The notes beneath the pieces are model-generated. The model was not told where the DNA came from, made no database searches, and worked only from the letters and a program-made list of their open reading frames with translations. A stretch of DNA of 64,000 bases from an uncultured Ruminococcus sp. (GTDB taxonomy: Bacteria; Bacillota; Clostridia; Oscillospirales; Acutalibacteraceae): NCBI GenBank assembly GCA_904393835.1, contig CAJFNC010000008.1, positions 62,001 through 126,000 of the forward strand. The letters are read 5' to 3'. Shown here one piece after another: positions 2,747-58,062 of the stretch (its first letter is position 1; each line of letters begins with the position of its first letter). A program made the translations under genes and the position numbers.

Positions 2747-2857
2747 TTCAAAGCCGGCAGAACAATGCGCTGCAAATCCGGTGGGGGATTGTATCCCCCA
2801 CTGAATTTTGATAATGTACGCCGCCTGTATAGACGGGAATATTAATCATGTTTGTTA
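2747..2857 (-). repeat. Dispersed multi-hairpin repeat, copy A
   Basis: AAAGCCGGCAGAACAATGCGCTGCAAATCCGGTGGGGGATTGTATCCCCCACTGAATTTTGATAATGTACGCCGCCTGTATAGACGGG...TGTTTGTTAT; matches the other copies by eye. Confidence 0.8.
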
Positions 2858-2875
2858 TACCGACTCCATACGCAA

Positions 2876-4525
2876 TTATTCAGCCGACTTAAGAATTACC
2901 GTTGACTGAGCGGGCAAAGTGATTTTTCCGTCTTTCAGCTCAATGTGCTTGTCGGAACTTTCGGCAACGAGGTCTGCCCTTACCTCCGCGTTTTTAATCA
3001 TATCATCTGTTATTGTGAGGTCAACGGACTCTTTTGCGTTAAAATTATGAATGATCATAAGCTTTGAGCCGTCGTACTCGGTGTAGAACGCGCAAATGTT
3101 TCTGTTGTCAAAATCCTGAGTGCCGGTAATTTCGCCGCGCGCAATTTCAGGGTTCTGATTTTTAATCTTTATAATTCTGCGGTAGTAGTTGAGCAGGGAG
3201 TCCTTGTCGGCAAGCTGCTGTTTTACGCCGCCGTTATCGGGCTCGTCCATAACATCGCCTATACCGTTTACAAATATACTCGGCATATTGTCGCTGTCAA
3301 AAATCATTGCCGTTCTGTAAGCTGCGTCGTTTGTCGTATTGGGAGCTTTTATGCCGATTTCCTCACCATAGTAAATGTAGGGGTTGCCCGGAAACAGCAT
3401 ATAAACTGCGGCGGCAAGCTTTTCATACCCCAAACCACGGCTGAGTGCGTTGGCGCTTCTGACCTGGTCGTGGTTTGACAGGAAATAAGCGTTGATAGCG
3501 TTGGGATTGCTCTCTTTCATTTTTTCGTTGTAGTTTTGAACCTTCTGCGCCAATGCGGAGCCGTTTTGCCCCAGTACATTGCTTATAAACATACCAGATG
3601 TCTGAGCAAACTTAAACGAAAACAGGCTGTCAATTCCCGAAGTGTACAGTTTTTCAATATCGGAATCATCTGTCCAGTCCTCGCCTACCATATATACGTC
3701 CGGATTGATTTTTTGACATTCGGAGTAAAACCACTTCAAAAATTCAGCGCCGTCTGTATCTTTATTTGTAAAATACTTGCAGGCGTCAAGTCGGAAACCG
3801 TCAACACCGCGGTCAAGCCAGAATTTAGCAATCTTTTTGAACTCATCTCTCGTTTTGTCGGAATTAAGGTTCCACTCGGGCATTTCGGGTGAAAAGTTTG
3901 CTTCGCAGGCATAGCCGTTTGCAAGCAAGTTGTAGTTTGTGTCATCATCAAAGTAAGATGTTTTGTGAATTTCAAAATATTCGGCATTGCCGTCCATTTT
4001 GCCCTCAGCAACCTCTTCAACAGCCTTTGTATAAAGAGGATTCTCAGAGGAAATGTGGTTTAGCACTAAGTCCATAATCAGCTTAATTCCGCGCTTGTGG
4101 CACTCCTCGACAAGCGTGTCAAGGTCATCAAGCGTACCGAAATCAGGGTCAATGTCATAGTAATTTTCAACGTCATATTTGTGATAAGACTTTGACGGCA
4201 TAATCGGAGTAAGCCAAATACCGTCGATTCCCAGGTCGTCTCCCGTGTTGGGATCGCCGTCGTTGAGGTAGTCGAGCTGAGAAATTATACCCTGCAAATC
4301 TCCTACGCCGTCGTCGTTTGAATCGCAGAATGAATGAACAAAAATTTGATAAAAGTTTCTGTATTTGTCGGTTGAAGCCGTCGCCTGAATATCGGCAATC
4401 GGGTCGCTTACTTCACCGTTATTACTGTTATTTCCACTGCTTTCATCCGCAGCCGTATTACAGCCCGCAAGCACGCAGCTGCCGACTACGGCAATACAAA
4501 GCAAAAGCGCAATGATTTTCTTCAT
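2876..4525 (-). CDS. GH13 alpha-amylase family lipoprotein
   Basis: Lipobox VLAGCN; GH13 motifs GIDGIWLTPIMPS, DLVLNHIS, GVDGFRLDACKYF, YFLSNHDQVR. Confidence 0.93.
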   Translation of the reverse strand: MKKIIALLLCIAVVGSCVLAGCNTAADESSGNNSNNGEVSDPIADIQATASTDKYRNFYQIFVHSFCDSNDDGVGDLQGIISQLDYLNDGDPNTGDDLGIDGIWLTPIMPSKSYHKYDVENYYDIDPDFGTLDDLDTLVEECHKRGIKLIMDLVLNHISSENPLYTKAVEEVAEGKMDGNAEYFEIHKTSYFDDDTNYNLLANGYACEANFSPEMPEWNLNSDKTRDEFKKIAKFWLDRGVDGFRLDACKYFTNKDTDGAEFLKWFYSECQKINPDVYMVGEDWTDDSDIEKLYTSGIDSLFSFKFAQTSGMFISNVLGQNGSALAQKVQNYNEKMKESNPNAINAYFLSNHDQVRSANALSRGLGYEKLAAAVYMLFPGNPYIYYGEEIGIKAPNTTNDAAYRTAMIFDSDNMPSIFVNGIGDVMDEPDNGGVKQQLADKDSLLNYYRRIIKIKNQNPEIARGEITGTQDFDNRNICAFYTEYDGSKLMIIHNFNAKESVDLTITDDMIKNAEVRADLVAESSDKHIELKDGKITLPAQSTVILKSAE

Positions 4526-4644
4526 AATTTTCCCTTTCTGCCCCGAGGCAAATATCAGTTTTTATAAACCTTTAAGCAAAGCGGTTTTCTGATTATATTT
4601 TGGACTGTCTTTTTCAGCCCGATAAACACGCCGTTCCGCTTTGC

Positions 4645-4703
4645 CATGTGAATTTTGATAATGGATGCGTCTATAATAGCGGGGACATTATCCTATTTGT
4701 TAT
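4645..4703 (-). repeat. Dispersed multi-hairpin repeat, copy B (partial)
   Basis: TGAATTTTGATAATGGATGCGTCTATAATAGCGGGGACATTATCCTATTTGTTAT matches the 5' module of the family. Confidence 0.7.
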
Positions 4704-4782
4704 ATTTTGCAATAATAATTATTTATGGTTTTAAATTTGCAAATTCCGAGATTATTATACTTTTATAACTTGTATATCAAAA

Positions 4783-4807
4783 GGGCGGCAGCCTCAGACT
4801 GCCGCCC
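4783..4807 (-). terminator. Hairpin GGGCGGCAG...CTGCCGCCC after malG-like gene
   Basis: 9-bp perfect GC-rich stem directly downstream of the CDS. Confidence 0.75.
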
Positions 4808-4827
4808 ATAAGAGCATAATTATTAAA

Positions 4828-5691
4828 TTAACCCTTAACGCCGCCGGCTGTTACGCCCTCTACGTAGTATCTCTGCATCAGCAGGAAGAGAACCGTAATA
4901 GGAACGGCAACGACTACCGAACCTGCAAGGAACTGCTTGTAGTATCTGTTCATAAAGTCGTTTGTTGTCATCAACTGCAAACCGATGGCAACCGTGTAGT
5001 TTTCACGCTTATCACCCATAATAATCTTGGCAAGAATAAAGTCTGTCCAAGGTCCGATGAATGATGTAAGTACGGTATAAACTACGATTGGCTTTGACAT
5101 AGGAAGAATAATCTTCCAGAAAATCTGGTTTTTGGTTGCGCCGTCAATGGTGGCCGCCTCGTCAAGAGCCCTTGGTATGGTATCAAAGAAGCCCTTTGAA
5201 ATCTGGAAGCCCAAACCTGCGCCGCAGCTGTAACAAATTACAAGTGCAACGAGAGTCTGTGTAAGACCCATTGCCTTAAGGAGATAGTAAATAGCGATCA
5301 TTGTCATAAAGCCCGGGAACATACCGAGAATCATACCAATGTTCATAAACTTTTTACGAGCCTTAAATCTGAGTCGGCTGAATGCGTAACTTACCATGAG
5401 GACTGATACAGTTGAAATTATGCAGCTGAAGCACGCAACTATAAATGTATTCATAAACCATCTTGGGAAGCTGAGCGCCGCATTACCGCCTGCGCCTGTA
5501 AACAAATCAATATAGTTTTGTAATGTCCACTCTTTCGGAATAAGGTAAGGTACTGCGATAAGACCTTCACCGCGGAACGAGTGCATTACCAGATATACAA
5601 ACGGAGAAATCCAGATAATTCCCATGACTGTAAGGAATAAGTAGATTAAGCCGTTTGCGAGATGTCTTCTAAACTTATAACTTTTTATCAT
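4828..5691 (-). CDS. MalG-type sugar ABC transporter permease
   Basis: Multi-TM; EAA loop EAATIDGATKNQIFWKIILPMSKP. Confidence 0.92.
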   Translation of the reverse strand: MIKSYKFRRHLANGLIYLFLTVMGIIWISPFVYLVMHSFRGEGLIAVPYLIPKEWTLQNYIDLFTGAGGNAALSFPRWFMNTFIVACFSCIISTVSVLMVSYAFSRLRFKARKKFMNIGMILGMFPGFMTMIAIYYLLKAMGLTQTLVALVICYSCGAGLGFQISKGFFDTIPRALDEAATIDGATKNQIFWKIILPMSKPIVVYTVLTSFIGPWTDFILAKIIMGDKRENYTVAIGLQLMTTNDFMNRYYKQFLAGSVVVAVPITVLFLLMQRYYVEGVTAGGVKG

Positions 5692-7184
5692 GAGAACGCC
5701 TCCTCATCCTTCATAGATTTGGAATTGTTGTAAACTATCAGCGAAATGGTAGCGCAAACTATAAATACCAAAATACCTATCGCCGCGGCAAGTCCGTAAT
5801 CCTGTTGGTTCATCGTCAGATTAAACAGCCACGTTACAAGGATATCCGTTCTACCGGCCTGATAGAATTCTTCCGTTTTCGGACCGCCGCCCGTGAGAAG
5901 GTAGATAACGTTAAAGTTGTTAATGTTACCTACAAACTGCGTAATAAGCTGCGGAGTTGTTACGAAGATCATATACGGAAGCGTAATCTTTGTAAACGTC
6001 TTAACGGGACCCGCGCCGTCAATGCGCGCAGACTCATACAAGTCCTCGGGAATATTCATAAGAATACCCGACATTGACAGAATCGTGTACGGAATACCTA
6101 CCCAACAGTTTACAATAATTACCGTCATTCTCGCCATCAGCGTCGTTGAATTCAGGAACTGTATGTTTGGATTTTCACCCAGGAACATACCGAGCAGTAC
6201 GTTTATCGCACCGTTTTGCTGAAGCATCTGGTTCATAAGAAGAAGTGATACGAACTGGGGAACAGCAATTGTGATAACGAAAAGTGTTCTCCAAAACGCC
6301 TTGAATTTGATGCCCTTTTTGTTAATCATAAGGGCAAAAATCATACCGAGAATGTAGTTTGAGAATGTTGCTACTACTGCCCAAAGAAGCGTCCACTTGG
6401 TAAGCTCCATAAATGTTGTCGCTTTTCTTGCACCATCAACTACGTTGAGCAAATCCGAAAAGTTGTCCAAACCTATCCAGGTAAACAGCGTACCCGGAGG
6501 AAGATGGCTTTTGTCGTAGTTTGTAAACGCAATCAAAATCATAAAGATGAGCGGCAGAATATTGAAAATGCCGATCAAAAGCGTAGGCAAAGAAAGAAGT
6601 GTAATATGATATTTTCCGTCGAGGAAATCTTTAACATCAGCTATAAATGAAGTAGGCTTTTTGCCCTCAGCTTTCATCTGCTGATGCTTATATGCGTCTT
6701 TAATGTTATAGATATAAATGGCAAAAACTATTACCGTAATTACAATTGACAATACGGAATAGAGCAAAATAAGCATTGAGTTGTCGCCGTAAACCGTTTT
6801 CGGTATTATGCCGACGTATTCCCTGTGTGTCTCTACTGTACCGAGAGTACCGAATTTGCTGAGATAGGTCCAGCCAAAGAAAATCATGTAGAGAATGTAG
6901 AATACCTCTACCAACAAATAAATTATTCCCTTATAATATTTACCCTTTGAAAAGTCACCGACACCAAATATTATGTAGGAAAGTTTCGTAGCCCAGTCGC
7001 CTTTTACAAAAGTTACGCCGTAGTTCTTAAAGCCTCTGCCGATACCAAGAAAAAGTTTTGCGAAAAATCTTCCGATTGCCTTAAAAAAGGTAGCAAGCGC
7101 ATGCGGTATCGCAAGAATGAACTTTTTTAATTTATAGGCAAATTTCTGAAAAGGATTGAGCATTTTGTATTCAACGTATGTCAT
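5688..7184 (-). CDS. MalF-type sugar ABC transporter permease with long N-terminal extension
   Basis: EAA loop YESARIDGAGPVKTFTKITLPYM; 4-nt overlap with malG-like gene. Confidence 0.92.
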   Translation of the reverse strand: MTYVEYKMLNPFQKFAYKLKKFILAIPHALATFFKAIGRFFAKLFLGIGRGFKNYGVTFVKGDWATKLSYIIFGVGDFSKGKYYKGIIYLLVEVFYILYMIFFGWTYLSKFGTLGTVETHREYVGIIPKTVYGDNSMLILLYSVLSIVITVIVFAIYIYNIKDAYKHQQMKAEGKKPTSFIADVKDFLDGKYHITLLSLPTLLIGIFNILPLIFMILIAFTNYDKSHLPPGTLFTWIGLDNFSDLLNVVDGARKATTFMELTKWTLLWAVVATFSNYILGMIFALMINKKGIKFKAFWRTLFVITIAVPQFVSLLLMNQMLQQNGAINVLLGMFLGENPNIQFLNSTTLMARMTVIIVNCWVGIPYTILSMSGILMNIPEDLYESARIDGAGPVKTFTKITLPYMIFVTTPQLITQFVGNINNFNVIYLLTGGGPKTEEFYQAGRTDILVTWLFNLTMNQQDYGLAAAIGILVFIVCATISLIVYNNSKSMKDEEAFS

Positions 7185-7327
7185 ATAAGCTCTCCTTAAT
7201 ATTGCAAGCTTGCAAATTGCGGGTAACCGGACAAATAATATTTTATTTTTTGCAGAAATAATAAGATATTATTCGCTCGACACCTGATTTTATTTTTGGT
7301 ACATACCCCAAAACTAAGTCTTTTTTT

Positions 7328-7357
7328 CGGGGTACCCTGCGATTGCAAAGTACCCCG
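7328..7357. other. Intercistronic stem-loop between malE-like and malF-like genes
   Basis: CGGGGTAC (7328-7335) pairs with GTACCCCG (7350-7357); in the minus transcript it is followed by A7, not U. Confidence 0.75.
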
Positions 7358-7395
7358 AATTTTGAAGTTAAACTCTGTCTAATCCGTTAATGACA

Positions 7396-8742
7396 TTAGC
7401 CTTCGTCTCTGATATTTTCAATTGTAGCCTTAAGAAGCTGCTTGATAGCGTCTGTATCATCGGGATTAAATTCATCTGCAATAAGCTGGTTACCGAGGTT
7501 AGCCATAGGATCCCAGAATGTTTTAGCAATGTTAACCTGTGCGCAAGAGTTAGAAGCCTGCTCTGCAATAGCCTGGAGAACAACGCTGTCTGTTACAACC
7601 TTATCTTTCTGAACTTCGAGGTTTGAAGGACCCCAGCCGAGTTCTTCGGCTCTCTGCTGCTGGCATACCTGTGAACCGAGGTAGAATGCAAGAATCTGAG
7701 CAGAAGCGGGGAATTTTGAAGAACCGTTTACGCCGAGGTATTTGTAACCGAACATTGAGATGAGCTGTTTGTCTTCGCCGTCAACGTTAATTGTCGGGAG
7801 CTTAGCAGCGCCGAAGTTGTCGCCGAGAGCTTCTTCGTTAACCGAAGTATCCCAAGAACCGTCAATACCTGCGCCGCAAGTATCGCTTGCAAAACCTGAA
7901 GCTACGTTCTTAACGTTGAGTGATACGAATGTACCCTTGTATTTTTTGATGAGTTTACCAAATGCCTGCAATGTCTTAACTGCAGCGTCCTCATCATAAT
8001 CTACGAATTTCTGTGTAATGCCGTCCTCTTCAAGACCGTCAACCTGCACGCCTGCAGTAAATGCGAATGTGCAAGAATAGAAACCGTCGCCGCAGTCCAT
8101 AACAAACTGTTTGCCGGCCTCCTTACAAGCTGCGAGAATATCCTCAAGCTTGCCTGCCTGCTCGTCGGAAACAACGCTCTTGTCATATACAAGATAGTAA
8201 CCGTTATCGTTTGTTTCGGGATAAGCGTAAAGCTCATCGTTGATTGTGCCTGCTGTTACTGTTTCTTCCTGATTAGCAGAAGAAACCACGTCCGCAAAGG
8301 CACAGGGAGAAATTACGCCTGCGTCAACAAGTAGGTTGAGCTGGTCACTCGGGAAGCTGAATACGTCGGCAGCTGTTGTAGCGTCGTTCATAAGAGCTGT
8401 AGCTGCGTCGCCTTCGCCCTGAGCAACAACCGAAATGTCGAACTTCTTATCAGGATAAAGCTTCTTAAATGCCTCAATCTGCTCTTTAGCAAGGTTTACT
8501 GTTGCGTCGGGCGCCCATACTTTAAGTGTGATTGTTGAGCCGTCCGCGCCTTCATCGCCGAACAAAGATTCGTCAACTTTACCTGTAGCAACGTCTGCCT
8601 GAGTAGCAGATGCGCCGCTGCCCGAATTACTTGAACCGTTTGAGCTGTTGTTTGAGCTCTCTTCACCTGAACCGCCTGTACAGCCTGCGAAAGCAGTAGC
8701 TGTCATGACGCCTGCCAAAAGAATGGCGAGAATCTTTTTCAT
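7396..8742 (-). CDS. MalE-type extracellular sugar-binding lipoprotein
   Basis: Lipobox AFAGCTGG; solute-binding protein features; adjacent to MalF/MalG-type permeases. Confidence 0.92.
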   Translation of the reverse strand: MKKILAILLAGVMTATAFAGCTGGSGEESSNNSSNGSSNSGSGASATQADVATGKVDESLFGDEGADGSTITLKVWAPDATVNLAKEQIEAFKKLYPDKKFDISVVAQGEGDAATALMNDATTAADVFSFPSDQLNLLVDAGVISPCAFADVVSSANQEETVTAGTINDELYAYPETNDNGYYLVYDKSVVSDEQAGKLEDILAACKEAGKQFVMDCGDGFYSCTFAFTAGVQVDGLEEDGITQKFVDYDEDAAVKTLQAFGKLIKKYKGTFVSLNVKNVASGFASDTCGAGIDGSWDTSVNEEALGDNFGAAKLPTINVDGEDKQLISMFGYKYLGVNGSSKFPASAQILAFYLGSQVCQQQRAEELGWGPSNLEVQKDKVVTDSVVLQAIAEQASNSCAQVNIAKTFWDPMANLGNQLIADEFNPDDTDAIKQLLKATIENIRDEG

Positions 8743-9185
8743 TGGAATATCCCTCTTTCAATAAAATTTTAGTTTTCCTTAAAGGATTATCTTTTGGAGC
8801 ATTTGCACAAGTAAGCACTTAACTCTCTACATAAATAATATCAAAAAAGTAAAGCAATTTCAACTACCTTTATATATTTTATTTACATCGTTAAAATTTT
8901 TAAATTATTTTGTGCAAATTCACGAATATATTCTTTGATTTTTATTTTTTGCACAATTTTCCCTTTGATTTTTTGGTTAATTTGCGTATATTCCAATTGT
9001 GCATTTTGACAATAGTTTTTGCTTTACCTTCATTAAATATTTATAATTTTTAAAATTTTTTTAATAATTTTATTTATTTTTTTTAAATTCATCAAATCTT
9101 TAGTATATTTTCACTAAATGGTAATTATTACATAAAAACACGCAATTATTATACAGAATAAACTTTAAAATATTTTGATATAAAG

Positions 9186-9214
9186 TTGTAAAACGGCTTT
9201 TGTGTTGGTATAAT
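9186..9214 (+). promoter_or_regulatory. Putative sigma-A promoter for murE
   Basis: TTGTAA-17 nt-TATAAT. Confidence 0.55.
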
Positions 9215-9215
9215 T

Positions 9216-9347
9216 ATAATAAACAGGATAATATGCCCCGCTTCTATTGGAGGCGTCCGTTATCAAAATTCGGCGGAGAAATACAAATCCCCACTGATTT
9301 GCGGTGTATTGTGCTGTCGGCTTTGATAAAAACAAAGCTTTGAATAT
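9216..9347 (+). repeat. Dispersed multi-hairpin repeat, copy C
   Basis: TAATAAACAGGATAATATGCCCCGCTTCTATTGGAGGCGTCCGTTATCAAAATTCGGCGGAGAAATACAAATCCCCACTGATTTGCGGTGTATTGTGCTGTCGGCTTTGATAAAAACAAAGCTTTGAATAT. Confidence 0.8.
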
Positions 9348-9386
9348 TTTTTATATCAGAAAATATAAACGGGAAGGATCACCATA

Positions 9387-10859
9387 ATGAAACTCTATGA
9401 TTTGGCAATTAATATAAAGTATGAAATAATTAACGCGGGCAATCCCGAGATTGAAGATATTATTTACGATTCACGCAAAGCAAAAAGGAATACCGTATTT
9501 GTCTGCCTAAAAGGCTACACCTCGGACGGACACAAGTTTGCAAAGTCGGCGGCGGAAAAGGGCGTATCTGCCCTTGTTATAAGCGACGACCTCAAATTTG
9601 ACGTCCCGAATAATATTGCCGTAATCAAGGTCGAAAATACCAGACTCGCTCTTGCGCTTATGAGCGCTGAGCTTTTCGAACACCCCGACAGAGAGTTAAA
9701 AACCGTGGCAATTACCGGCACAAAGGGAAAAACCACAACCACCGCCATGGTTGCCGAAATTTTTGAGCGCGCAGGAATTAAAACCGGCACTATCGGCACG
9801 CTCGGTGTTGTTTACGGCGGAAACACCTACAAAACCGACAACACCACGCCCGAATCCTATGAAATTCAAAAATCAATGAGAAATATTATAAACAACGGCT
9901 GCAAAGCAATGGTTATTGAAGCGTCGTCGCTGGGGCTCAAACACAACCGCCTTGCCGGAATTACTTTTGACGTCGGCGTGTTTACAAATTTTTCAGATGA
10001 CCATATCGGCGGAGCCGAGCACAAGGATTTAGCGGAATATCTATACTGCAAGAGTCTGCTGTTTCGCCAATGCAGGCACACGGCGGCAAATATTGACGAT
10101 AAAAACTGGGAGGAAATCACCCGTGACGCCAAGGGTAAAATTTTAAAATACGGTTTTTCTTCATCGGCGGATCTTGTAGCAAAAAACGAACATCTTTTGT
10201 CCGACAAGGGCTTTATCGGCGTTCACTTTGAAACGGATGGCATAAAAAAGCTGTCTCTTGACGTAGGTGTTCCGGGCAAGTTCAACGTTTACAACGCGCT
10301 TGCCGCAATAAGCGCCGTATCTTTCTTTGATATTCCCGACAACGCAATCGTAAGCGGACTTAAAGCAGCCAAGGTCAAGGGCAGAGTTGAGCCGGTAAAA
10401 GTACCGGGGCACTACACACTGCTTATCGACTACGCTCACAATGCGCTGTCAATGGAAAACGTGCTCACAACCCTGCGTCAGTACAATCCCCACAGGCTTA
10501 TCACTATGTTCGGCGCAGGCGGCAACAGACCGAAAGTACGCCGCTACGAAATGGGCGAAGTTTCGGGCAGACTTTCCGATCTTTCGGTTATCACCGAGGA
10601 CAACTCGCGTTTTGAGGACGTTATGGATATTATTGAAGACATTAAGGTTGGCATAAACAAAACCGGCGGAAAGTACGTTGTTGTACCCAACCGCAAAGAC
10701 GCCATTCGTTACTGTATGGAGATTGCGCAGGACGGCGACATAATCGTGCTCGCCGGCAAAGGGCACGAGGATTATCAGGAAATCAAGGGCGTTAAATATC
10801 ATATGGACGAACGAGAGCTTGTCGCCGACATTATTGCCGAGGGCATCAACAAAAAATAA
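9387..10859 (+). CDS. murE: UDP-N-acetylmuramyl-tripeptide synthetase
   Basis: DSRKAKRNTVFVCLKGYTSDGHKFA, ITGTKGKTTTTAMV, IDYAHNALSMENVL, LAGKGHEDYQ. Confidence 0.95.
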   Translation: MKLYDLAINIKYEIINAGNPEIEDIIYDSRKAKRNTVFVCLKGYTSDGHKFAKSAAEKGVSALVISDDLKFDVPNNIAVIKVENTRLALALMSAELFEHPDRELKTVAITGTKGKTTTTAMVAEIFERAGIKTGTIGTLGVVYGGNTYKTDNTTPESYEIQKSMRNIINNGCKAMVIEASSLGLKHNRLAGITFDVGVFTNFSDDHIGGAEHKDLAEYLYCKSLLFRQCRHTAANIDDKNWEEITRDAKGKILKYGFSSSADLVAKNEHLLSDKGFIGVHFETDGIKKLSLDVGVPGKFNVYNALAAISAVSFFDIPDNAIVSGLKAAKVKGRVEPVKVPGHYTLLIDYAHNALSMENVLTTLRQYNPHRLITMFGAGGNRPKVRRYEMGEVSGRLSDLSVITEDNSRFEDVMDIIEDIKVGINKTGGKYVVVPNRKDAIRYCMEIAQDGDIIVLAGKGHEDYQEIKGVKYHMDERELVADIIAEGINKK

Positions 10860-10880
10860 AATAATAAATATAAATGAAAA

Positions 10881-10908
10881 GAGCCTAAAACCGAATGAGT
10901 TTTGGCTC
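10881..10908. terminator. Bidirectional terminator between convergent genes
   Basis: GAGCCtAAAAC...GTTTTgGCTC flanked by A-tract and T-tract. Confidence 0.8.
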
Positions 10909-10922
10909 TTTTTAAGTTTAAA

Positions 10923-11471
10923 TTACTTAATGAATCTGCTTACAAAATTCCATTTGCCTATAACGGGCAGCTCCTTGTATTTGCCCTGAGCCGCATTTAC
11001 AATACCGATAATCATAAGCGCCAGAAAAACCAGAGCGCATATACCTAAAATTGCCGAAACAACCGATACAATCGGGTTTGGAGCGCTGTAAAAAAAGTAA
11101 TATACACGCGGTAACGCCGCATTCAAGATTGAAATGATAATCCATTGAGCGATTGTATATAACAAAGACAGCGCAAACAATGTCGCGCCCTGTCTTACGT
11201 GAAAACGCGCATAAGGTGAATTTTTTGCCGCAAACAGCGGAATGAGAAAAAGAATACCTATGTACGAAAGTACAGCCATCGCCTTGTTTTCTTTTATGTC
11301 GGCTTCGGGTGAAAGCGGCTGAACCGGCGCCGCATACTGCTGAGACTGCGCGGCCTGCTGCGCTGTGTTCTGTGTTGTATTTTGTGTTTGGTTATTTGCG
11401 GGTGTTCCGCACTGCATGCAAAAAGCTGCGTCGTCTGCAAGCTGTGCGCCGCATTTACTGCAAAATCCCAT
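10923..11471 (-). CDS. Zinc-ribbon membrane protein (DUF4870-like)
   Basis: N-terminal MGFCSKCGAQLADDAAFCMQCGTP zinc ribbon, C-terminal TM region with ARFHVRQGATLF. Confidence 0.8.
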   Translation of the reverse strand: MGFCSKCGAQLADDAAFCMQCGTPANNQTQNTTQNTAQQAAQSQQYAAPVQPLSPEADIKENKAMAVLSYIGILFLIPLFAAKNSPYARFHVRQGATLFALSLLYTIAQWIIISILNAALPRVYYFFYSAPNPIVSVVSAILGICALVFLALMIIGIVNAAQGKYKELPVIGKWNFVSRFIK

Positions 11472-11645
11472 TGTTCTGCTCCTTTAAATCAAATTGTGTT
11501 AAGCGTTTTACCGCATCAACAAGAAAATTATACATAAAAAGATATTTATTTGTCAATAATTTAAAGTAAAATTGGCATAAATCACAATTTTATTCTCATT
11601 CATAGACATAATATTATCATTAACCGTACAAATTCACTGTAAAAA

Positions 11646-11672
11646 CAGGCGGCAATTATAAATTGCCGCCTG
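11646..11672 (-). terminator. Perfect hairpin downstream of purL
   Basis: CAGGCGGCAATTataAATTGCCGCCTG. Confidence 0.75.
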
Positions 11673-11688
11673 CATATCATATTACAAA

Positions 11689-15659: not shown

Positions 15660-15663
15660 TAAA

Positions 15664-23068: not shown

Positions 23069-23185
23069 GTGTTGGCATCTCCCTATTTTCCCGGGCCGTC
23101 TCCAGCCAAGTATTTTCGGCACCACTGAGCTTAACTTCTGTGTTCGGTATGGGAACAGGTGGACCCCAACTATTTTTTGACATCC
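23069..23185 (-). rRNA. rrf: 5S rRNA, isolated; 5' strand divergent or truncated
   Basis: Minus strand TCCACCTGTTCCCATACCGAACACAGAAGTTAAGCTC...GTGCCGAAAATACTTGGCTGGAGACGGCCCGGGAAAATAGGGAGATGCCAACAC is a clear 5S core and 3' end. Confidence 0.8.
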
Positions 23186-23372
23186 TCTCTTGAGAACAGT
23201 TGTTATTATACTACAAAAGGAACTTGTTGTCAACACTTTTTTTAAAAAAATTTGAAAATTTTTCAAAAAGATTTTTTACTCGCCAAACTCCTCTGAATTT
23301 CGCTTAAAAATGCAGTTTTTGCGACCACGGACGTATGCAAAAGCACACGTCCGCAGTATTGCAGTATTTTTA

Positions 23373-40406: not shown

Positions 40407-40472
40407 TATAATAAACAGGATAATGTACACCCCTCTATAGGCGGCGCCGACTATACAAATTCATTTCCCTGA
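40407..40472 (+). repeat. Dispersed multi-hairpin repeat, copy D (partial)
   Basis: ATAATAAACAGGATAATGTACACCCCTCTATAGGCGGCGCCGACTATACAAATTCA. Confidence 0.7.
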
Positions 40473-45013: not shown

Positions 45014-45014
45014 T

Positions 45015-45140
45015 CATAATAAACAGTATAATATCCTCCACGTATAGATGCGGGAAAAATTACCAAAATTCAGCGGCGGAATACAATCACCCACTGAATT
45101 TGAAGCGCAGTGCGCTGCTTGCTTTGACAAAAGCGTTAAT
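45015..45140 (+). repeat. Dispersed multi-hairpin repeat, copy E
   Basis: CATAATAAACAGTATAATATCCTCCACGTATAGATGCGGGAAAAATTACCAAAATTCAGCGGCGGAATACAATCACCCACTGAATTTGAAGCGCAGTGCGCTGCTTGCTTTGACAAAAGCGTTAAT. Confidence 0.8.
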
Positions 45141-46554: not shown

Positions 46555-46562
46555 TAATTTTA

Positions 46563-46592
46563 ACGGCGGCTGAACTATTTCGGCCGCCTCTT
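46563..46592 (+). terminator. Terminator after CpXC gene
   Basis: GGCGGC...GCCGCC followed by TCTTT. Confidence 0.6.
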
Positions 46593-46682
46593 TAATTAAA
46601 TACACGTTTTAAGCAAAAAGGCCGCACGGCAATACCCGTGCAGCCCCCTATTTTTCATATACCTATATACTAAATTTACTTG

Positions 46683-47372: not shown

Positions 47373-47480
47373 TTTATCATCCTCAAAATTCTTAACTACT
47401 CTTATACCGTAAATTATTATAGCACATTGACTTTACAGATTAAAATACATATAATATATGTATTATTATATCAAAAAGGT

Positions 47481-48395: not shown

Positions 48396-48460
48396 TAAAT
48401 GTTCAATTTAATAAATCGCACGGCATTTGCAAACTGTCTGCCGTTATCACCATAACAAAA

Positions 48461-48483
48461 AGCACAAGGGCTTTCCTTGTGCT
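48461..48483. terminator. Bidirectional terminator
   Basis: AAAAAGCACAAGGgctttCCTTGTGCTTTTT. Confidence 0.85.
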
Positions 48484-48503
48484 TTTTACTTGCTTAAAAT
48501 AAC

Positions 48504-49874: not shown

Positions 49875-50126
49875 ATATCACTCCTTTTTTATTTACTATT
49901 TTATTATAACACATTTTTATTAAAAAGAAAAGATACAATCATCTAAATTTTGTCATATATTTTTGTTTGTGTTTAAGCACATTGCAATTTTAATGACATT
50001 ATTTATTCATTTTTATACTAACATTTCATTAATCACTGTATTTACAGCAAAAAAATGAATTAATCATTTTAAAAAAATTCATAATCCGCATTATTATCCA
50101 AATTCAGTATTTCAGCGCAAAAATAA

Positions 50127-50159
50127 ACGGAGCAAACTTTAAAAGCCTGCTCCGTTTAT
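50127..50159 (-). terminator. Terminator after amylase
   Basis: AAACGGAGCA...TGCTCCGTTT hairpin. Confidence 0.7.
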
Positions 50160-50195
50160 GATATTGTTTTTACAATTTGATATTACAATTGCCGA

Positions 50196-52448
50196 TTATT
50201 TGAGGTATGTACCGTTCGTGCCAATCTGACCGCTTATACCTGTAAAACCTGTTGCGCAGCATACATAAACTCTCATATTTGCCTTTCCGATTGACGGAAC
50301 GGTAAGAGTGCCGTTTGTAACATTCTGAACATCGCCGGTTACAGCGTCAATATACTTGCCGTTGGGGATATTCTTGAATGTAGCGCCGCCTGAAATTGTT
50401 ACGCAAGCAAGGCTGTCAACGCCTTCAGCTGTGTAGCGGCGGATATATGCCATATTGCCTGAAACATAATTGCTGTCAGTTGTGTACTGACCTTTCTGCA
50501 AAGCAGGAACAGCTCTTCTGATTTTGTTGAGCTGCTGAATGTGTACGGCAAGCGGAGAGCTGAGTGTTTCGGCAGCTGTACCCGTTGCAGTGTATTCGGC
50601 AAAATCGGTTGCGTTGATGTCACCCTCAATGTAATCGCCGAAGTATGCGCGGCCTGTTGTTGAAAGCGGAGCGTTGGGACCTACGTCCATCGGAACGCCT
50701 GCCTGGAATTCAACTTCACTTCCGTAGTAAAGACACGGAATACCGCGGAATGTAAAAAGAAGGTCAAGGTTTTCTGCCCAAGCCTGTGTGCCTCCGTTGT
50801 AACGGGTATCCATATCGGGACCGTAGTCGTGTGAGTCAACATATGTTACATTCCATGTTGAGTCGTTATAGTACGGATCCTCTTCAAGTCCTCTTCTGAA
50901 TGCATTGCCGGCATTGCTGAAGTTCCAGTGCATCGGGAAGTCGATTACGCCCGTGCCGTTTGACTGGCTGTAATCAGGTGTATGATATGTAATACCGTCG
51001 AGATATACGTTATCGGATGTAGGCTGGTTAGCCGTTGAGCTGTTGTCATTGTAATTTGCAATCGTAAGTTGAACATTTGCATCCCAGTCATCGCCGAGAG
51101 CTCCGATATATTTGCTGTCTGTTTCGGCCCAGGTGTAGAACGGCGCTGAAATAGCGGGAATGTTGTGATTCCAGAATTCGCTTACACGTGTGCAAACTTC
51201 ACCAAATACATAGAAGTTGTCGCCGCCTGTGCTGAGCCATGACGGGAAGAAGAACTGGTTGAGCGTAAGTCTTGAAACGTGCTTTTCGGTATCCAATCTG
51301 AAACCGTCAACACCCATCTCAATATAGCTGTTGTAACAGTCGTTGAGATACTCGGCAACCTTCGGATTTTCGGTATTGATATCTACGCAGTCGCCGGCAA
51401 TCTGACCTGTTTGTACAGTCGGGCTTTCCCAGCTTAGATCTTTGTAGTGATGATAGTTGTTTTCGGCGTCATGAGTACCTGAATCAAGCTCCTTTGTATC
51501 TTTCATAATGTTGAGTCGTGCCTGATACTGAGTATTTGCATCAAGATCATCATAGTTTGGGAAAGTATTTGCAAGATCCGATCCTTCAATTACCTGCATA
51601 CAGTCTGCCGATGCCAAATCCTCAATTGTATCATACTCTTTTGTAAACATCGGAGCCAAAGCAGCCTCGCCGAAGTTACCGGAATGGTTGATAACTACGT
51701 CCTGAATAATCTTTAAGCCCTTCTCGTGAGCAGCGTCAATCAAATCCTGATATGTAGCGCCGTCGCTTTCATATCTTACATCAACTGTAGAGAAGTCAAA
51801 AGCATGATAACCATGATAATCGTAGCCTGAAGCGTTTGTTACAACGGGCGTAATCCAAATTGCGGAGAAGCCGAGAGCCTTGATGTAGTCGAGTTTATCG
51901 ATAAGACCCTTAAAGTCACCGCGCCAAGCGGGATCCGAATCGGGATTGTTGGCTTGTGCGTCATCCCAGCAGTGAACATTGTTGCCTGTGTCGCCGTCAT
52001 AAAAACGTGTTGTGATTACAAAATAGATGGAATCCTCTCTTAGATCCGTTCTTGTCCAGTCATCAACAGTTGCGGGATCCTTGCTGTACCATCTTTTGTT
52101 CTTGTACCACCACTCACCTGTATTTCTGGTAAGCTCTGCCGACTGCTCGCCGTTTGTGACAAACATCATATTGATTTTTGTCACATCGTTAAAGGTATAG
52201 GAGTAGTAGTTGTTACCCTCGTAATTCATTTTTGGACCGGGGTAATCGGTTGTGATATTTTGCGGAAGGCTGTTCCAATAATAAATTGAGGGTGTGCCTT
52301 CTTCGCAATAGTAGTGCACAGTAATGCTGCTTGATTGTGAAACGCTGTCATCATCGCTCTTTTCAGCCGCATTTGTTGTAAATACGCCGACAGTGCATAT
52401 TACACATAAAGCCAAAATCAAAGCAATGATTTTTTTCATTTTTGCCAT
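50196..52448 (-). CDS. Secreted GH13 alpha-amylase with N-terminal starch-binding (CBM26-like) module
   Basis: Signal peptide; N-terminal YYCEEGTPSIYYWNSLPQ...WWYKNKRWY; GH13 motifs DVVINHSG, GVDGFRLDTEKHV, FGEVC, YVDSHDYGPD. Confidence 0.92.
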   Translation of the reverse strand: MAKMKKIIALILALCVICTVGVFTTNAAEKSDDDSVSQSSSITVHYYCEEGTPSIYYWNSLPQNITTDYPGPKMNYEGNNYYSYTFNDVTKINMMFVTNGEQSAELTRNTGEWWYKNKRWYSKDPATVDDWTRTDLREDSIYFVITTRFYDGDTGNNVHCWDDAQANNPDSDPAWRGDFKGLIDKLDYIKALGFSAIWITPVVTNASGYDYHGYHAFDFSTVDVRYESDGATYQDLIDAAHEKGLKIIQDVVINHSGNFGEAALAPMFTKEYDTIEDLASADCMQVIEGSDLANTFPNYDDLDANTQYQARLNIMKDTKELDSGTHDAENNYHHYKDLSWESPTVQTGQIAGDCVDINTENPKVAEYLNDCYNSYIEMGVDGFRLDTEKHVSRLTLNQFFFPSWLSTGGDNFYVFGEVCTRVSEFWNHNIPAISAPFYTWAETDSKYIGALGDDWDANVQLTIANYNDNSSTANQPTSDNVYLDGITYHTPDYSQSNGTGVIDFPMHWNFSNAGNAFRRGLEEDPYYNDSTWNVTYVDSHDYGPDMDTRYNGGTQAWAENLDLLFTFRGIPCLYYGSEVEFQAGVPMDVGPNAPLSTTGRAYFGDYIEGDINATDFAEYTATGTAAETLSSPLAVHIQQLNKIRRAVPALQKGQYTTDSNYVSGNMAYIRRYTAEGVDSLACVTISGGATFKNIPNGKYIDAVTGDVQNVTNGTLTVPSIGKANMRVYVCCATGFTGISGQIGTNGTYLK

Positions 52449-52583
52449 AAATTTTCCTCCGGATATCTGATAAATTTCACAAATATTATTATAAATTAGA
52501 AAATAAAATATATTTTTCTTTTGTAGAATAATAAAATCATTGCGCTGCCAAATATTTGCGCTTTAGTTTAGGTAATATATACA

Positions 52584-52631
52584 AAAAGCGACTTTAAAGC
52601 AAATTTTTCGTCGCTTTTAAGTCGCTTTTTT
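52584..52631. terminator. Terminator between HAD and amylase genes
   Basis: AAAAAGCGACTTTAAAGC...GCTTTTAAGTCGCTTTTTT. Confidence 0.65.
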
Positions 52632-52651
52632 GCATAAGCCATAAGCATTAT

Positions 52652-53461
52652 TTATTTGAGTATATATTTTTCAAAGGTTTTTGCCACACCGTCGTCGTCG
52701 TTTGACTCGCAGATGTAGTCGGCAATTTTTTTAACATCGCTTTCGGCATTGCCCATCGCAACGCCCATACCTGCATATCCTATCATAGTTATGTCGTTGT
52801 AGTGATCGCCGAACGCCATGGTTTCTTCACGGGGAATGCCGAGCTTTTCAAGCAGCATAGGCATCATAGAACCCTTGGTTACGCCAAACGGCATAATTTC
52901 GAGAAAATACGGCGCGCTTTTGTACACGTCAAGCAAACCGTCGTAACGATTTGAAAGTATCTTTGCGTACTCGTCAATCTCTTCGGGCTCGCCGGCAAGC
53001 AAAATTTTATTTATGTCAAAGGTTACTGCCGAAATAAAGTCGTCAACAACCACCATATCCGTTTTTAAGACATCACGTTCAACGTAAGTATAATCATTAA
53101 CCTTTGTGTCGGAATAAATTTTTTTGTCATCGTAAGTGTTTATTGTAATGTTGGAATTTTTGAGCACACCCACGATGTCGGCAATATATTCCTTGGGAAA
53201 AAGCTTGCTGACTATTGTCTGCCCGGTGGCACAGTTGATGATTTTGCCGCCGTTAAACGCCATAATGTAGCCGCCGTAGCGGTCAAGCAAAAGCTCTTTT
53301 GCAATAGGCTCAACGCCTACGGGGTGCCTGCCCGATGCAAGCACAATTATTTTTCCCGCCTTTTGCGCCTCAAGAATCGCGTATCTTGTAGCAGGGGTAA
53401 TCTCTTTTTTGGAATTAGTCAAAGTTCCGTCAATATCAAGCGCTATTAATTTATATTCCAT
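52652..53461 (-). CDS. Cof-type HAD-IIB family phosphatase
   Basis: LIALDIDGTLTNSKKEIT, AFGDHYNDITMIGYAGMGVAMGNAES. Confidence 0.93.
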   Translation of the reverse strand: MEYKLIALDIDGTLTNSKKEITPATRYAILEAQKAGKIIVLASGRHPVGVEPIAKELLLDRYGGYIMAFNGGKIINCATGQTIVSKLFPKEYIADIVGVLKNSNITINTYDDKKIYSDTKVNDYTYVERDVLKTDMVVVDDFISAVTFDINKILLAGEPEEIDEYAKILSNRYDGLLDVYKSAPYFLEIMPFGVTKGSMMPMLLEKLGIPREETMAFGDHYNDITMIGYAGMGVAMGNAESDVKKIADYICESNDDDGVAKTFEKYILK

Positions 53462-53745
53462 AAATATCTCCTGTTAAAATACTTTTCGCATTTTTACCGA
53501 ATTTTACAAACATAATATCACTATACCACATTTAATCAGGAAATTACAATATGTATGGATTGTTTTTTGTGTCGTTTTTTGTCGTATTATCGGTCTTTCC
53601 GCAGTGAGTGAGCTTTTAAACTATCGGCAGTAAATATTTGCGCGCATCAAAATGTATTTTAATTATTTGCAAAATTTTGAAAAATATGCACGCTCAAAAA
53701 TACAAGCGATGTTTTGATATAACGCTGCTTGTGTCCAAATTAAAT

Positions 53746-54072
53746 TTATCTCATTTGGTACTTTTTTAAATCTACTTTCCCGTTAATTACCTCTACGCCC
53801 TCTTTTTCGAGAAGCTGCTGCTGAACATTGATTCCGCCGAAAGCAAAATTTGGCGCCAACATCCCCTTTGAATTCACTACACGGTGGCAGGGGATTATTC
53901 CCGGAGCGGGGTTTTTATGCAACGCATTGCCGACCGCCCTTGCGTAGCCCTTATTGCCCGCCATTACGGCAATTTGTCCGTAGGTGGCAACCTTTCCGCG
54001 GGGAATAGACAACACCGCGTCGTAGATTCGCTCATACACCGTTTTTTCTCTTTTTATTTCGTCTGTAATCAT
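53746..54072 (-). CDS. MGMT-family protein, DNA-binding domain only
   Basis: IPRGKVATYGQIAVMAGNKGYARAVGNALHKNPAPGIIPCHRVV; active-site PCHRV retained. Confidence 0.88.
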   Translation of the reverse strand: MITDEIKREKTVYERIYDAVLSIPRGKVATYGQIAVMAGNKGYARAVGNALHKNPAPGIIPCHRVVNSKGMLAPNFAFGGINVQQQLLEKEGVEVINGKVDLKKYQMR

Positions 54073-54123
54073 CTTTTTACACCCCTATTCTCAGTTTGTT
54101 TATATTGATATTTATAATTACTT

Positions 54124-54222
54124 ATTCAAAGCTTTGCCTCCATCAAAGCCGGCAGCGCATTGCGCTGAGTTTTGATAACGGACACCCATATGCAAAGGCG
54201 GGTGACAGTATCCTGTTTTATA
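54124..54222 (-). repeat. Dispersed multi-hairpin repeat, copy F (internally deleted)
   Basis: TTCAAAGCTTTGCCTCCATCAAAGCCGGCAGCGCATTGCGCTGAGTTTTGATAACGGACACCCATATGCAAAGGCGGGTGACAGTATCCTGTTTTAT. Confidence 0.75.
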
Positions 54223-54494
54223 TATCGGCTGTTTTAACTTTACAGATGTATAAATTTTATTACTTTTAAAAAAAATAATCAACATAATGTAATTATAGGT
54301 TGTGCAAACCGTTAAACAAAAAAATCAATAGACAATCAAACCCAGCAGGCAATATATTATTTGTTTTATTTTTTCTTTAAAACAAAAACAATGCCATTAT
54401 ACATAAAAATAACCCCTTGAAAACAAAGGGTTATCGTATATAATTATAATTACAAAATGATTATTGCAATTATACTTAATTTTTTAAATATAAG

Positions 54495-54668
54495 TCAGTT
54501 TTGTTTTCGCACAACACCGTATTCGTCATCGGCTCTAAAATAGTGGCATTGGGTAACGCTTTCGTTGAGGAATTTCTCCATTTCGTCCTCGTCAAGATCA
54601 ACGTCACAATAATTTCCCAACTCGTCGTCCATAATGTAGTGCGTGCAAAATTCACATGAATCCGCCAT
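54495..54668 (-). CDS. Small Cys-containing protein (DUF6472-like), 57 aa
   Basis: Reverse strand ATG 54668 gives MADSCEFCTHYIMDDELGNYCDVDLDEDEMEKFLNESVTQCHYFRADDEYGVVRKQN stop; RBS GGAGAAG; below the ORF-track length cutoff. Confidence 0.8.
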   Translation of the reverse strand: MADSCEFCTHYIMDDELGNYCDVDLDEDEMEKFLNESVTQCHYFRADDEYGVVRKQN

Positions 54669-54670
54669 AG

Positions 54671-55255
54671 TCACTTCTCCGCATCAATAATATTTTGATA
54701 TTTGTTGTAGGCAAAAGGCTCGTAGTTTTCGAGCTGTTCAAAAACCTCTTCTTCGCTGTTTGCCACAGAAAACAGCTTTGAACAGTCGTCGGCAATAAAG
54801 TCAGTCTGCTCGGCGTGATCCATCATACTGAGCATTGAGTCGTAGTAGCCGTACATATTATATACGATAATCTGTTTTTCGTGGCGCCTGAGCTGTTTGA
54901 GCGTCAACACCTCAAAGAACTCCTCAAATGTTCCTATTCCGCCGGGACAAATGATAAAGGCGTCGGACTTATCCTCCATAATGCCTTTGCGTTCGCGCAT
55001 AGTTTCGGTATAGATAAGCTCGGTACATTTGTCAAATATAACGTTAAGCTCATTAAAAAACGTCGGGGTCACCCCGATAATCCTGCCGTTTTCCGCCAAA
55101 GCCCCTCTTGCCGCAGCGCCCATTACGCCGTATTTGCCTCCGCCGAAAACAAGCGTATCGCCGCGTTTTGCGATGTCTCGCGCAAGTTCAAAAGCAGAAT
55201 CAAGATACTTTTTATCAATAATTTCGCTGGATGAACCAAAAACACATATATTCAT
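54671..55255 (-). CDS. LOG family protein (TIGR00730-type Rossmann)
   Basis: VFGGGKYGVMGAAARGAL, FIICPGGIGTFEEFFEVLTLKQL. Confidence 0.92.
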   Translation of the reverse strand: MNICVFGSSSEIIDKKYLDSAFELARDIAKRGDTLVFGGGKYGVMGAAARGALAENGRIIGVTPTFFNELNVIFDKCTELIYTETMRERKGIMEDKSDAFIICPGGIGTFEEFFEVLTLKQLRRHEKQIIVYNMYGYYDSMLSMMDHAEQTDFIADDCSKLFSVANSEEEVFEQLENYEPFAYNKYQNIIDAEK

Positions 55256-55350
55256 TCTGAATTTCCTTTCCGAATAAAAGCAGATGTTTTCTGCCTTAGC
55301 ATATATTATACAATACTTAAACGAGTCGGTCAATAAAAACGAACTTAGTT

Positions 55351-55478
55351 TTTAAAGCTTTGATTTTATCAAAGCCGGCAGCGCAACGCGCTGCAAATTC
55401 AGCAGGAGTTGTATTCGACGCTGAATTCAGATAACGGACGCCGCCTATAGAGGTGAGGGTCACTGTACTGTTTGTCAC
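55351..55478 (-). repeat. Dispersed multi-hairpin repeat, copy G
   Basis: TTAAAGCTTTGATTTTATCAAAGCCGGCAGCGCAACGCGCTGCAAATTCAGCAGGAGTTGTATTCGACGCTGAATTCAGATAACGGACGCCGCCTATAGAGGTGAGGGTCACTGTACTGTTTGTCAC. Confidence 0.8.
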
Positions 55479-55535
55479 AAATGTTATCTTAATTATTCTT
55501 AATTATTATATTATATTGTAAACGGGGGATAGTTT

Positions 55536-56939
55536 ATGTCGAAAGCAATGTTTAAAAACGATACAAATCTGCCCATTGCCAAAAGAAGCGTGTTTAGTCT
55601 TGCGTGGCCGATATTTTTCCAATCCCTTTTGGGGGTATCTCTGGGATATGTTGACACGATTATGCTGTCAAATTACAATGATACCGCCGTCGGCGCAATC
55701 GGAAACGCCAACTCAATTATCGGATTTTTGGCGCTTGCCTTTTCAATTATTTCCACCGCTACGGGCATAATGGTAAGCCAGTACCTGGGCGCGAACAAAA
55801 AAGAAGAAATGAACAAAATCTACACTGTTGCCGTCGGCTTTAACCTGGCGCTCAGCGTAATAATAAGCCTTGTTGTGTTTATATTCAGCCGTCAGCTTTT
55901 GGTGCTTATGCAGGTGCCCGAGGCAATGCTAAACGAAGCCGACAGCTATATGCGCATTGTAGGCGGTACAATTTTTACGCAGGCTATGCTAAACGCCTTT
56001 AACCAGATTTTTGACAGCAACGGCAAAACCATTTTCGGTATGGTTATTTCCTTTGCAATGAACATTATAAACATTGTCGGCAACGCTCTGTTTTTGTACG
56101 GACCGCTTAAAGTATTCGGTCTGGGTGCATCGGGCGCGGCTGTTTCTACCTGCCTGAGCCGTGTAATTGCCGTAATTGCCGCCGTGTTCTACTTTTTCTT
56201 TGTAATCAAAGGCAGACTGGGAATACGCTATCTTAAACCGTTTCCGTTCAACATACTAAAGGGACTTTTAAAGCTCGGTATTCCGACCGCGGGAGAAAAT
56301 ATATCATACAATTTTTCGCAGCTTATCCTGACCGCCTTTGTAAACACAATGGGAATTGTGGCAATTAACGCCAAAATCTACGCCAATATGCTGTCAATGT
56401 TTACATATATGATTGCGCTCGCCGCCGCCTCGGCAACGCAGATTATCGTAGGTCACAGCGTAGGCGCAGGCGACTACGACTTTGCGTATCACCGCGTGCT
56501 GAAAACTATGCGGTTCGGGCTTATCGTTTCAATTTCCGTCGCAATAGTTAACTGTTTGCTTTCGCCCTACACATTCCATCTTTTTACGGGCGACAGCGAA
56601 GTTGTCAAACTGGGTACGGCTGTTATGTTTATCAGTATTTTCCTTGAATTCGGCAGAACAACAAACATCGTCATCATCAACAGTATGAAAGCGGCGGGCG
56701 ACGTAAAGTTTCCTACTGCGCTTGCAATTTTCTCTATGTGGGGAATCAGCGTATTTGTCGGCTACATTCTCGGAATTGTATGCGGACTCGGGCTTATCGG
56801 TATCTGGATTGGTATGGCGCTCGACGAAATTTTCAGAGCCGTTGTGGTTTTCATCAGGTGGAGAAAGGGCACGTGGAGAGGCAAGAGAATTGTTGCCGAC
56901 GAACATTTCAAAACCGAAAAATCTGTTGCGAGAGCTTAA
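55536..56939 (+). CDS. MATE family efflux transporter
   Basis: 12-TM pattern, FSLAWPIFFQSLLGVSLGYVDTIMLSNYNDTAVGAIGNANS. Confidence 0.92.
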   Translation: MSKAMFKNDTNLPIAKRSVFSLAWPIFFQSLLGVSLGYVDTIMLSNYNDTAVGAIGNANSIIGFLALAFSIISTATGIMVSQYLGANKKEEMNKIYTVAVGFNLALSVIISLVVFIFSRQLLVLMQVPEAMLNEADSYMRIVGGTIFTQAMLNAFNQIFDSNGKTIFGMVISFAMNIINIVGNALFLYGPLKVFGLGASGAAVSTCLSRVIAVIAAVFYFFFVIKGRLGIRYLKPFPFNILKGLLKLGIPTAGENISYNFSQLILTAFVNTMGIVAINAKIYANMLSMFTYMIALAAASATQIIVGHSVGAGDYDFAYHRVLKTMRFGLIVSISVAIVNCLLSPYTFHLFTGDSEVVKLGTAVMFISIFLEFGRTTNIVIINSMKAAGDVKFPTALAIFSMWGISVFVGYILGIVCGLGLIGIWIGMALDEIFRAVVVFIRWRKGTWRGKRIVADEHFKTEKSVARA

Positions 56940-56956
56940 ATTTAAAATTCACCATA

Positions 56957-56996
56957 TAAAATGCGTATGCACACGGTGCATACGCATTTTGTTTTA
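56957..56996 (+). terminator. Terminator after MATE gene
   Basis: AAATGCGTATGCACacggtGCATACGCATTTTGTTTT. Confidence 0.8.
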
Positions 56997-56997
56997 C

Positions 56998-57064
56998 GCA
57001 TAACAAACGGGATAATGTCCCCTTCTATAGAGGCGGGGACATTGTCAAAACTTTGAGTATTGCA
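56998..57064 (+). repeat. Dispersed multi-hairpin repeat, copy H (internally deleted)
   Basis: CGCATAACAAACGGGATAATGTCCCCTTCTATAGAGGCGGGGACATTGTCAAAACTTTGAGTATTGC. Confidence 0.75.
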
Positions 57065-57067
57065 GGC

Positions 57068-57910
57068 TTATTTTTCATCAAAAAGTTCGGGGTGCATACG
57101 GCTGTAATGAAAAATATACTGCTGCGCAATTCCCGCATATTCGCCGAAATCTTCCGCCGTCATACCGGGAAAAAGCTTTGCCATGGCGCGTTTCATCCAT
57201 ACGTCAACGGGAAACGCCTCGATGCGGTGCAGACCGAACAGCAAAGTACAGTCGGCAACCTTGACGCCTACGCCCGTTATCTTCATCAGCTCACCCCTTG
57301 CCTGTTCATAATCGCAGGTTCTGCATTTTTCAAGGTTAACTTCGCCCGAATATACCTTTTGGGCAGCATCGACAAGATAACGGCTGCGAAATCCCGCACG
57401 CAAAGGCGCAAGGTCGTCGGGGGTAAGCTTTGACATTTTCTCGGCGGTCGGAAACGCGAACTCTCCGTCACTGAGCTTTTCACCGAAATTTTCGCATAGC
57501 CTCTGCACAATTCCCTTGATACGCTTTATGTTGTTATTCTGTGAAATTATAAATGTGCACAGCGCCTCGTACGGTTCCTGCCGCAGAATACGTATGCCGG
57601 GCGCATAGCGCGCCGCCTCACGCAGCACGGGATGGATTGCGCTTATCTCCTCCCTGATTTTTCCGTAATCAAGCATAAAATCAAAATAGTTGTACCAGAT
57701 ATTTTCAAAATCCGCTTTATCGGCGTTTTCTATATACATATCCTCGTTTTCAAGGCGCACGGTAACGCTTTTGCCGTAGGCTACGCCCTTAAAAGAGCCG
57801 TCGTGCTGCTGTATCCACCTGAAGCTCTGACCGCAGTCGAGCGTCTGCGCCAAATCAAGATCCCTTACGGGAGAAATTTTTATTTTTCCGTTAAGCTCGG
57901 TACATTCCAT
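57068..57910 (-). CDS. 8-oxoguanine DNA glycosylase/AP lyase family
   Basis: LDCGQSFRWIQ, FIISQNNNIKRIKGIVQRLCENFG, KITGVGVKVADCTLLFGLHRIEAFPVDVWMKRAM. Confidence 0.92.
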   Translation of the reverse strand: MECTELNGKIKISPVRDLDLAQTLDCGQSFRWIQQHDGSFKGVAYGKSVTVRLENEDMYIENADKADFENIWYNYFDFMLDYGKIREEISAIHPVLREAARYAPGIRILRQEPYEALCTFIISQNNNIKRIKGIVQRLCENFGEKLSDGEFAFPTAEKMSKLTPDDLAPLRAGFRSRYLVDAAQKVYSGEVNLEKCRTCDYEQARGELMKITGVGVKVADCTLLFGLHRIEAFPVDVWMKRAMAKLFPGMTAEDFGEYAGIAQQYIFHYSRMHPELFDEK

Positions 57911-57952
57911 ATAAACACCCCTAATCGTTTAAATTTTACCTTATCCGAAAAT

Positions 57953-58062
57953 ATAACAAACAGGATAATGTCTCCTCCTCTAAAGGCTGAGTCCATTATC
58001 AAAATTCAGCGGCGAGATACAATCCCCGCTGAAAACTTTGACAAAAGCAAAGCCTTAAATAC
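57953..58062 (+). repeat. Dispersed multi-hairpin repeat, copy I
   Basis: AACAAACAGGATAATGTCTCCTCCTCTAAAGGCTGAGTCCATTATCAAAATTCAGCGGCGAGATACAATCCCCGCTGAAAACTTTGACAAAAGCAAAGCCTTAAAT. Confidence 0.8.

Follow-up and report, generated by a model that had tools for sequence, protein, structure and literature searches.

A family of four-hairpin repeats in an uncultured Ruminococcus and its relatives with the features of a mobile element inserted after TATAA

Repeat copies in the window and across the genome

The window, i.e., the whole 64,000-nucleotide stretch of DNA analyzed here (G000:C8:62001-126000), belongs to the 2.05-Mb genome of an uncultured Ruminococcus sp. from the rumen (G000). A 5S rRNA gene lies at 23070-23187 on the minus strand. 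The original prediction had pointed out nine related places by eye, and a profile search with a model built from 34 full copies (R1, match threshold of E ≤ 1e-3) recovered exactly these nine inside the window as genuine members of one family, with E values from 2.4e-29 to 5.3e-5 and no tenth match.

Two copies detected by nhmmer are full, one at 9215..9345 on the plus strand (115 bits; R1 E value of 2.4e-29), with the target TATAA at 9215-9219 and the element proper from 9220 to ca. 9343, and another at 55350..55477 on the minus strand (112 bits; 7e-28). The copy at 2748..2859 (minus strand, model positions 1 to 113, 84.9 bits; 6.6e-21) ends early at the first GCTTTGA and has no hairpin 4, and that at 45016..45134 (plus, model positions 2 to 120; 3.2e-24), directly following a terminator-like hairpin, has no right end. 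Both ends are kept at 54124..54224 (minus; 1.9e-14), where hairpin 2 is deleted, and the copy at 57952..58060 (plus; 2.3e-20) has an internal deletion comprising the right arm of hairpin 2 and hairpin 3. The rest of the nhmmer matches are partial: 4649..4704 (minus, model positions 1 to 58, hairpin 1 only; 3.3e-6), 40407..40463 (plus, model positions 1 to 58; 5.3e-7), and 57000..57052 (plus; 5.3e-5), the last one consisting of hairpin 1 with a perfect GTCCCC/GGGGAC stem.

Genome-wide statistics for G000 derive from searches and individually retrieved stretches. At the same threshold, R1 gave 66 matches in the 2.05-Mb genome, i.e., about sixty scattered copies. The consensus proposed originally by eye already matched more than 40 places in the genome by BLAST (best E value, 4.5e-44), far above chance; its leading “ATAA,” however, turned out to be part of the insertion target (TATAA), the element proper being [C/T]AAAC...CTTTGAA. 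One 1.9-kb stretch elsewhere in the genome (G000:C17:14509-16375; L025, 2509-4377) contains three full copies in both orientations, one of them at the stop codon of a gene.

Ends, target site, and insertion

The element is non-coding and ca. 125 bases long, with a short left end (C/T-AAA...), four serial hairpins, and the right end CTTTGAA. When 46 copies were aligned with their flanks, the ends were sharp and the flanks unrelated. The majority sequence of the copies reads TATAA-CAAACAGGATAATGTCCCCCGCCTCTATAGGCGGCGTCCATTATCAAAATTCAGCGGCGGGATACAATCCCCCACTGAATTTGCAGCGCAATGCGCTGCTTGCTTTGATAAAAGCAAAGCTTTGAA, and an exact TATAA precedes the element in 39 of the 53 copies with an intact left end. 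Every right end carries the dinucleotide AA (37/37), and the left end nearly always does. As for the right end itself, CTTTGAA is found in G000, G021, and G070, GATTTAAA in G142, and TTATTGAA in G379, all of them resembling the target.

Within the window, the original statement that no copy interrupts a gene is fair. Outside it, several copies of G000, G021, and G013 start exactly on a gene's stop codon, with TAA in the reading frame. For two such genes, we looked at the relatives. The last residue of ilvA is the same in 13 of 15, with a TAA stop in 11 (as gtaTAA in 4), and the DUF1846 gene ends at the same position in 12 of 13, with TAA in 6. Since the relatives use a native TAA stop there, TAA/TATAA is older than the insertion. 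Besides, G070 carries a four-unit head-to-tail array with junctions CTTTGAA|CCACAGAG, in which TATAA appears before the first unit only, and a second tandem array starts in the same way. Judging from these native stops and the tandem array, the left TATAA is the target and not part of the element. Together with the TATAA counts, they show insertion 3' of a fixed, pre-existing pentanucleotide. With this target, copies come to lie on stop codons and a short way 3' of promoter boxes resembling TATAAT.

Presence and absence of a copy could be compared at one syntenic gap. The gap between a response regulator and a histidine kinase gene holds a copy in G000, and in the relatives it is shorter and without a copy, the intergenic DNA being too diverged for a base-by-base junction.

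The size, copy number, and intergenic location of the repeats would fit a miniature inverted-repeat element (MITE) moved by a DDE transposase. However, no target-site duplication was found in a scan over many lengths and offsets around the copies, and there is no terminal inverted repeat common to the sub-families (CAAAC versus CTTTG in G000; CCACAG versus CTTTG in G070). Both absences had been noticed from the sequence in the original prediction and are borne out here, making a DDE-driven MITE extremely unlikely.

Hairpins, covariation, and decay

The four serial stems proposed originally describe the consensus, but individual copies in the window are decayed. Folded as single-stranded DNA, an intact copy of a relative gave exactly these four hairpins (z = −7.8) and one unit of G070 reached z = −8.5, while the decayed window copy at 9221-9343 adopted a different fold (z = −2.3). 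Some copies have no hairpin 2, no hairpins 2 and 3, or no hairpin 1, yet keep the left bases and/or hairpin 4; hairpins 1 and 4 are retained in copies without the middle, so that subterminal hairpins are found at both ends. Copies that end at the first GCTTTGA can be explained, from their sequence, by a deletion from one GCTTTGA repeat of hairpin 4 to the other. An additional outer stem, in which the 5' bases pair with the strand preceding hairpin 4, was visible by eye in part of the sub-families and was discarded because it is missing in others (e.g., L189).

Within G000, the stems are 87.5% paired, compensatory changes among the 34 full copies do not exceed those in shuffles, and RNAalifold predicted no conserved pairs among the copies of this genome. 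Between genomes, covariation is strong, with 20 double-changed cells versus 8.6 expected (0 of 500 shuffles). In an alignment of 41 rows covering many sub-families, there were 254 such cells versus 71, a figure that leans towards structure since the rows, five of them from the opposite strand, were fitted to the model. Covariation between species but not within a genome is the pattern predicted for a structure that is important for mobility rather than at the individual sites. The divergence of copies within one genome from their own consensus is close to star-like, and we infer that structure is maintained in moving copies and lost after insertion.

This combination provides a clean discriminator between a mobile structured element and a functional RNA, such as a leader (attenuator) or mRNA stabilizer whose amplification would reflect a benefit at every site. 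In favor of the latter are the strong covariation between species, the location of many copies just upstream of a ribosome-binding site, and their orientation, sense outnumbering antisense in co-directional gaps (29 to 11, P = 0.006). On the other hand, compensatory changes within the genome stay at the level of shuffles, many copies are antisense or broken, no Rfam family matches the element, and the orthologous sites are empty in relatives. A functional RNA therefore appears quite unlikely, and the RNA-like reading of the original prediction is weakened. Relative to local GC skew, the orientation bias is weak (36 versus 22, P = 0.09), which counts against the IS200/IS605-like model given below. 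Either selection or a preference for exposed single strands as insertion sites could account for the orientation bias.

Distribution and database searches

With a second model (R2), diverged sub-families of the element were recovered in 29 of 161 genomes searched within the genus; G000, G021, G070, and G142 have many copies. Among 244 other genomes of the order, six, from three other families, had matches, including G379 with 13 copies and G341 with 8. The distribution is thus patchy, with bursts in these six named genomes. Searching 85k species genomes, the exact right-end string appeared only in metagenome-assembled genomes (MAGs) labeled uncultured Ruminococcus (one labeled uncultured Clostridiales), with isolate names referring to rumen or ruminant. 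The exact left-end pattern of G000 had no match in these 85k genomes, because the relatives read CAAATC.

Four element patterns gave zero matches in IMG/VR, as did a G379-type copy in phage and plasmid records. We found no comparable repeat of Ruminococcus in the open-access papers searched. Within the limits of Rfam and of this literature, the original view that the repeat matches no named family stands.

Two neighborhoods of copies are worth describing. In L190 (1501-1830), a diverged copy in G003 lies ca. 110 bases upstream of a small SRP RNA gene identified by Rfam. In L042, L182, and L183 (ca. 1500-1980), from three species, a copy and a downstream 52-amino-acid ORF (MFDDIFGGMFDFDGDGHTDF...) form one block that is 93 to 99% alike; its left flank is unrelated, and in L042 so is the right flank past the ORF. 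These sequence comparisons suggest that the small gene moved along with the element.

Search for the mobilizing enzyme

No autonomous copy of the element was found among the copies examined. Copies consisting of the right half only were considered as candidates, but their adjacent genes are ordinary (antiporter, acyltransferase, and ABC ATPase), and these copies are internal deletions that retain left bases. We also looked for a Y1 (TnpA) transposase. The Y1_Tnp domain was not detected in the carriers G341 (99% complete; without a match even at E ≤ 0.1), G121 (100%), G176 (99%), G142 (96%), and G021 (91%), and the sole match in G000 (G000:C16:28474-28737; L038, ca. 1501-1764) is decayed, its matched frame being interrupted by three stop codons. 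An IS200 between two copies in G070 has its own ends and was considered a chance neighbor; the IS605 of G379 was rejected as the driver for the same reason, i.e., it has its own ends. Overall, no Y1 element with matching ends was found in the genome or its relatives, Y1 being either absent or differently ended. Metagenome assemblies often lose insertion sequences, and because of this the driver may be simply missing. Either IS200/IS605-type drivers were lost or left unbinned in the MAGs or an undescribed transposase is active.

One alternative keeps the same mobile element but moves it as a circle (junction CTTTG-AA-C) by site-specific recombination at the AA shared with TAT-AA, using a serine (IS607-like) or an IS110-type recombinase. 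The conserved AA at both ends and the tandem junctions CTTTGAA|CCAC fit such an intermediate, and several carriers have no Y1. IS607 is likewise devoid of terminal inverted repeats and target-site duplications (PMC6188088). Nevertheless, the IS110 domain PF02371 is present in just 1 of 12 carriers, and a strict requirement for four hairpins is unexpected for double-strand recombination. We consider this alternative rather unlikely.

REP sequences are defined as palindromes of 20 to 50 nucleotides preceded by a GTAG-type tetranucleotide (PMC8266576). Spread by RAYT (TnpA-REP) would agree with the high number of intergenic palindromes, their absence from the searched viral, phage, and plasmid collections, and the existence of RAYT-like genes in the genus. 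However, the consensus bears no GTAG tag and comprises 125 bases with four hairpins, not a palindrome of that length. The RAYT genes examined in the genus were rejected as drivers because their neighbors are other, GTAG-type palindromes, and none was detected in the copy-rich carriers. Hence, the REP/BIME-like reading of the original prediction finds no support, and we regard it as very unlikely. As separate observations, several species of the genus have RAYT-like genes in the interval from argH to argC (L090, L092, and L093), and in G080 such a gene sits beside GTAG-type palindromic repeats (GTAGGGxxGCACC...) that make up a separate REP system.

A model for the movement of the element

Our best explanation, which we hold with about even confidence, is that the repeats are mostly decayed copies of a ca. 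125-base mobile element, mobilized in trans in an IS200/IS605 (HUH)-like manner and inserted 3' of TATAA. Mobility and the TATAA target are well supported. Thus, of the three original readings, the one supported is the non-autonomous element mobilized in trans, given the fixed ends and target, the presence or absence of copies at orthologous sites, the tandem array, and the sub-families. By analogy, IS200/IS605-like chemistry is likely. An enzyme acting in trans would recognize the folded ends and cleave behind TATAA on the left side and behind the right end, whose sequence (TTTGAA, TTTAAA, or TTATTGAA) resembles TATAA. The excised element would be pasted 3' of another TATAA, as in the single-strand (HUH) transposition of IS200/IS605, and the inserted copy would then decay.

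A more tentative possibility is an undescribed transposition system, in which an enzyme other than a Y1 transposase or an IS110 recombinase would insert a folded four-hairpin element 3' of TATAA, the element spreading over several families of one order with its structure kept while the sequence is replaced. Four-hairpin miniature elements inserting after TATAA are a genuine, diverse, and apparently undescribed superfamily, which adds to the mobile elements of Ruminococcus-like bacteria from the gut and rumen.

Comparison with known systems

ERIC, RUP, BOX, and similar repeats are modular, imperfect palindromes of ca. 100 to 130 bases, intergenic and prone to internal deletions, all of which they share with the element. 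For ERIC and RUP, targeting of TA and inverted ends are generally assumed. By description, the element is set apart from these families in having four serial hairpins and in the lack of a duplication. REP/BIME sequences moved by RAYT and REPINs are similarly intergenic, palindromic, present in many copies, and absent from the searched viral, phage, and plasmid collections, but the element is longer, has a fixed TATAA target instead of a GTAG tag, and its units are not paired as inverted. IS607 and IS110 have in common with it the lack of terminal inverted repeats and target-site duplications and a possible circular intermediate; they encode a recombinase, whereas the element is gene-less and no related recombinase is linked to it.

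The remaining comparison is with IS200/IS605, which have neither terminal inverted repeats nor target-site duplications, carry hairpins at their ends, and insert 3' of a tetra- or pentanucleotide (PMC7290912, PMC6006769). Unlike them, the element has four serial hairpins, of which the left and right differ in sequence, and nothing in the ends of IS200/IS605 corresponds to the middle ones (2 and 3); no related Y1 element was found in the genomes. By eye, no conserved stretch complementary to TATAA or TTTGAA stood out as a guide tetranucleotide 5' of the hairpin feet, where it would pair with the cleavage sites. Its copy number is also much higher than that of the single PATE, an ends-only derivative, of PMC7290912. 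Nevertheless, the element shares with IS200/IS605 and PATEs the lack of inverted repeats and duplications, a fixed pentanucleotide 5' of the insertion, hairpins near both ends, and a right end that resembles the target, and, like the element, PATEs have no coding capacity.
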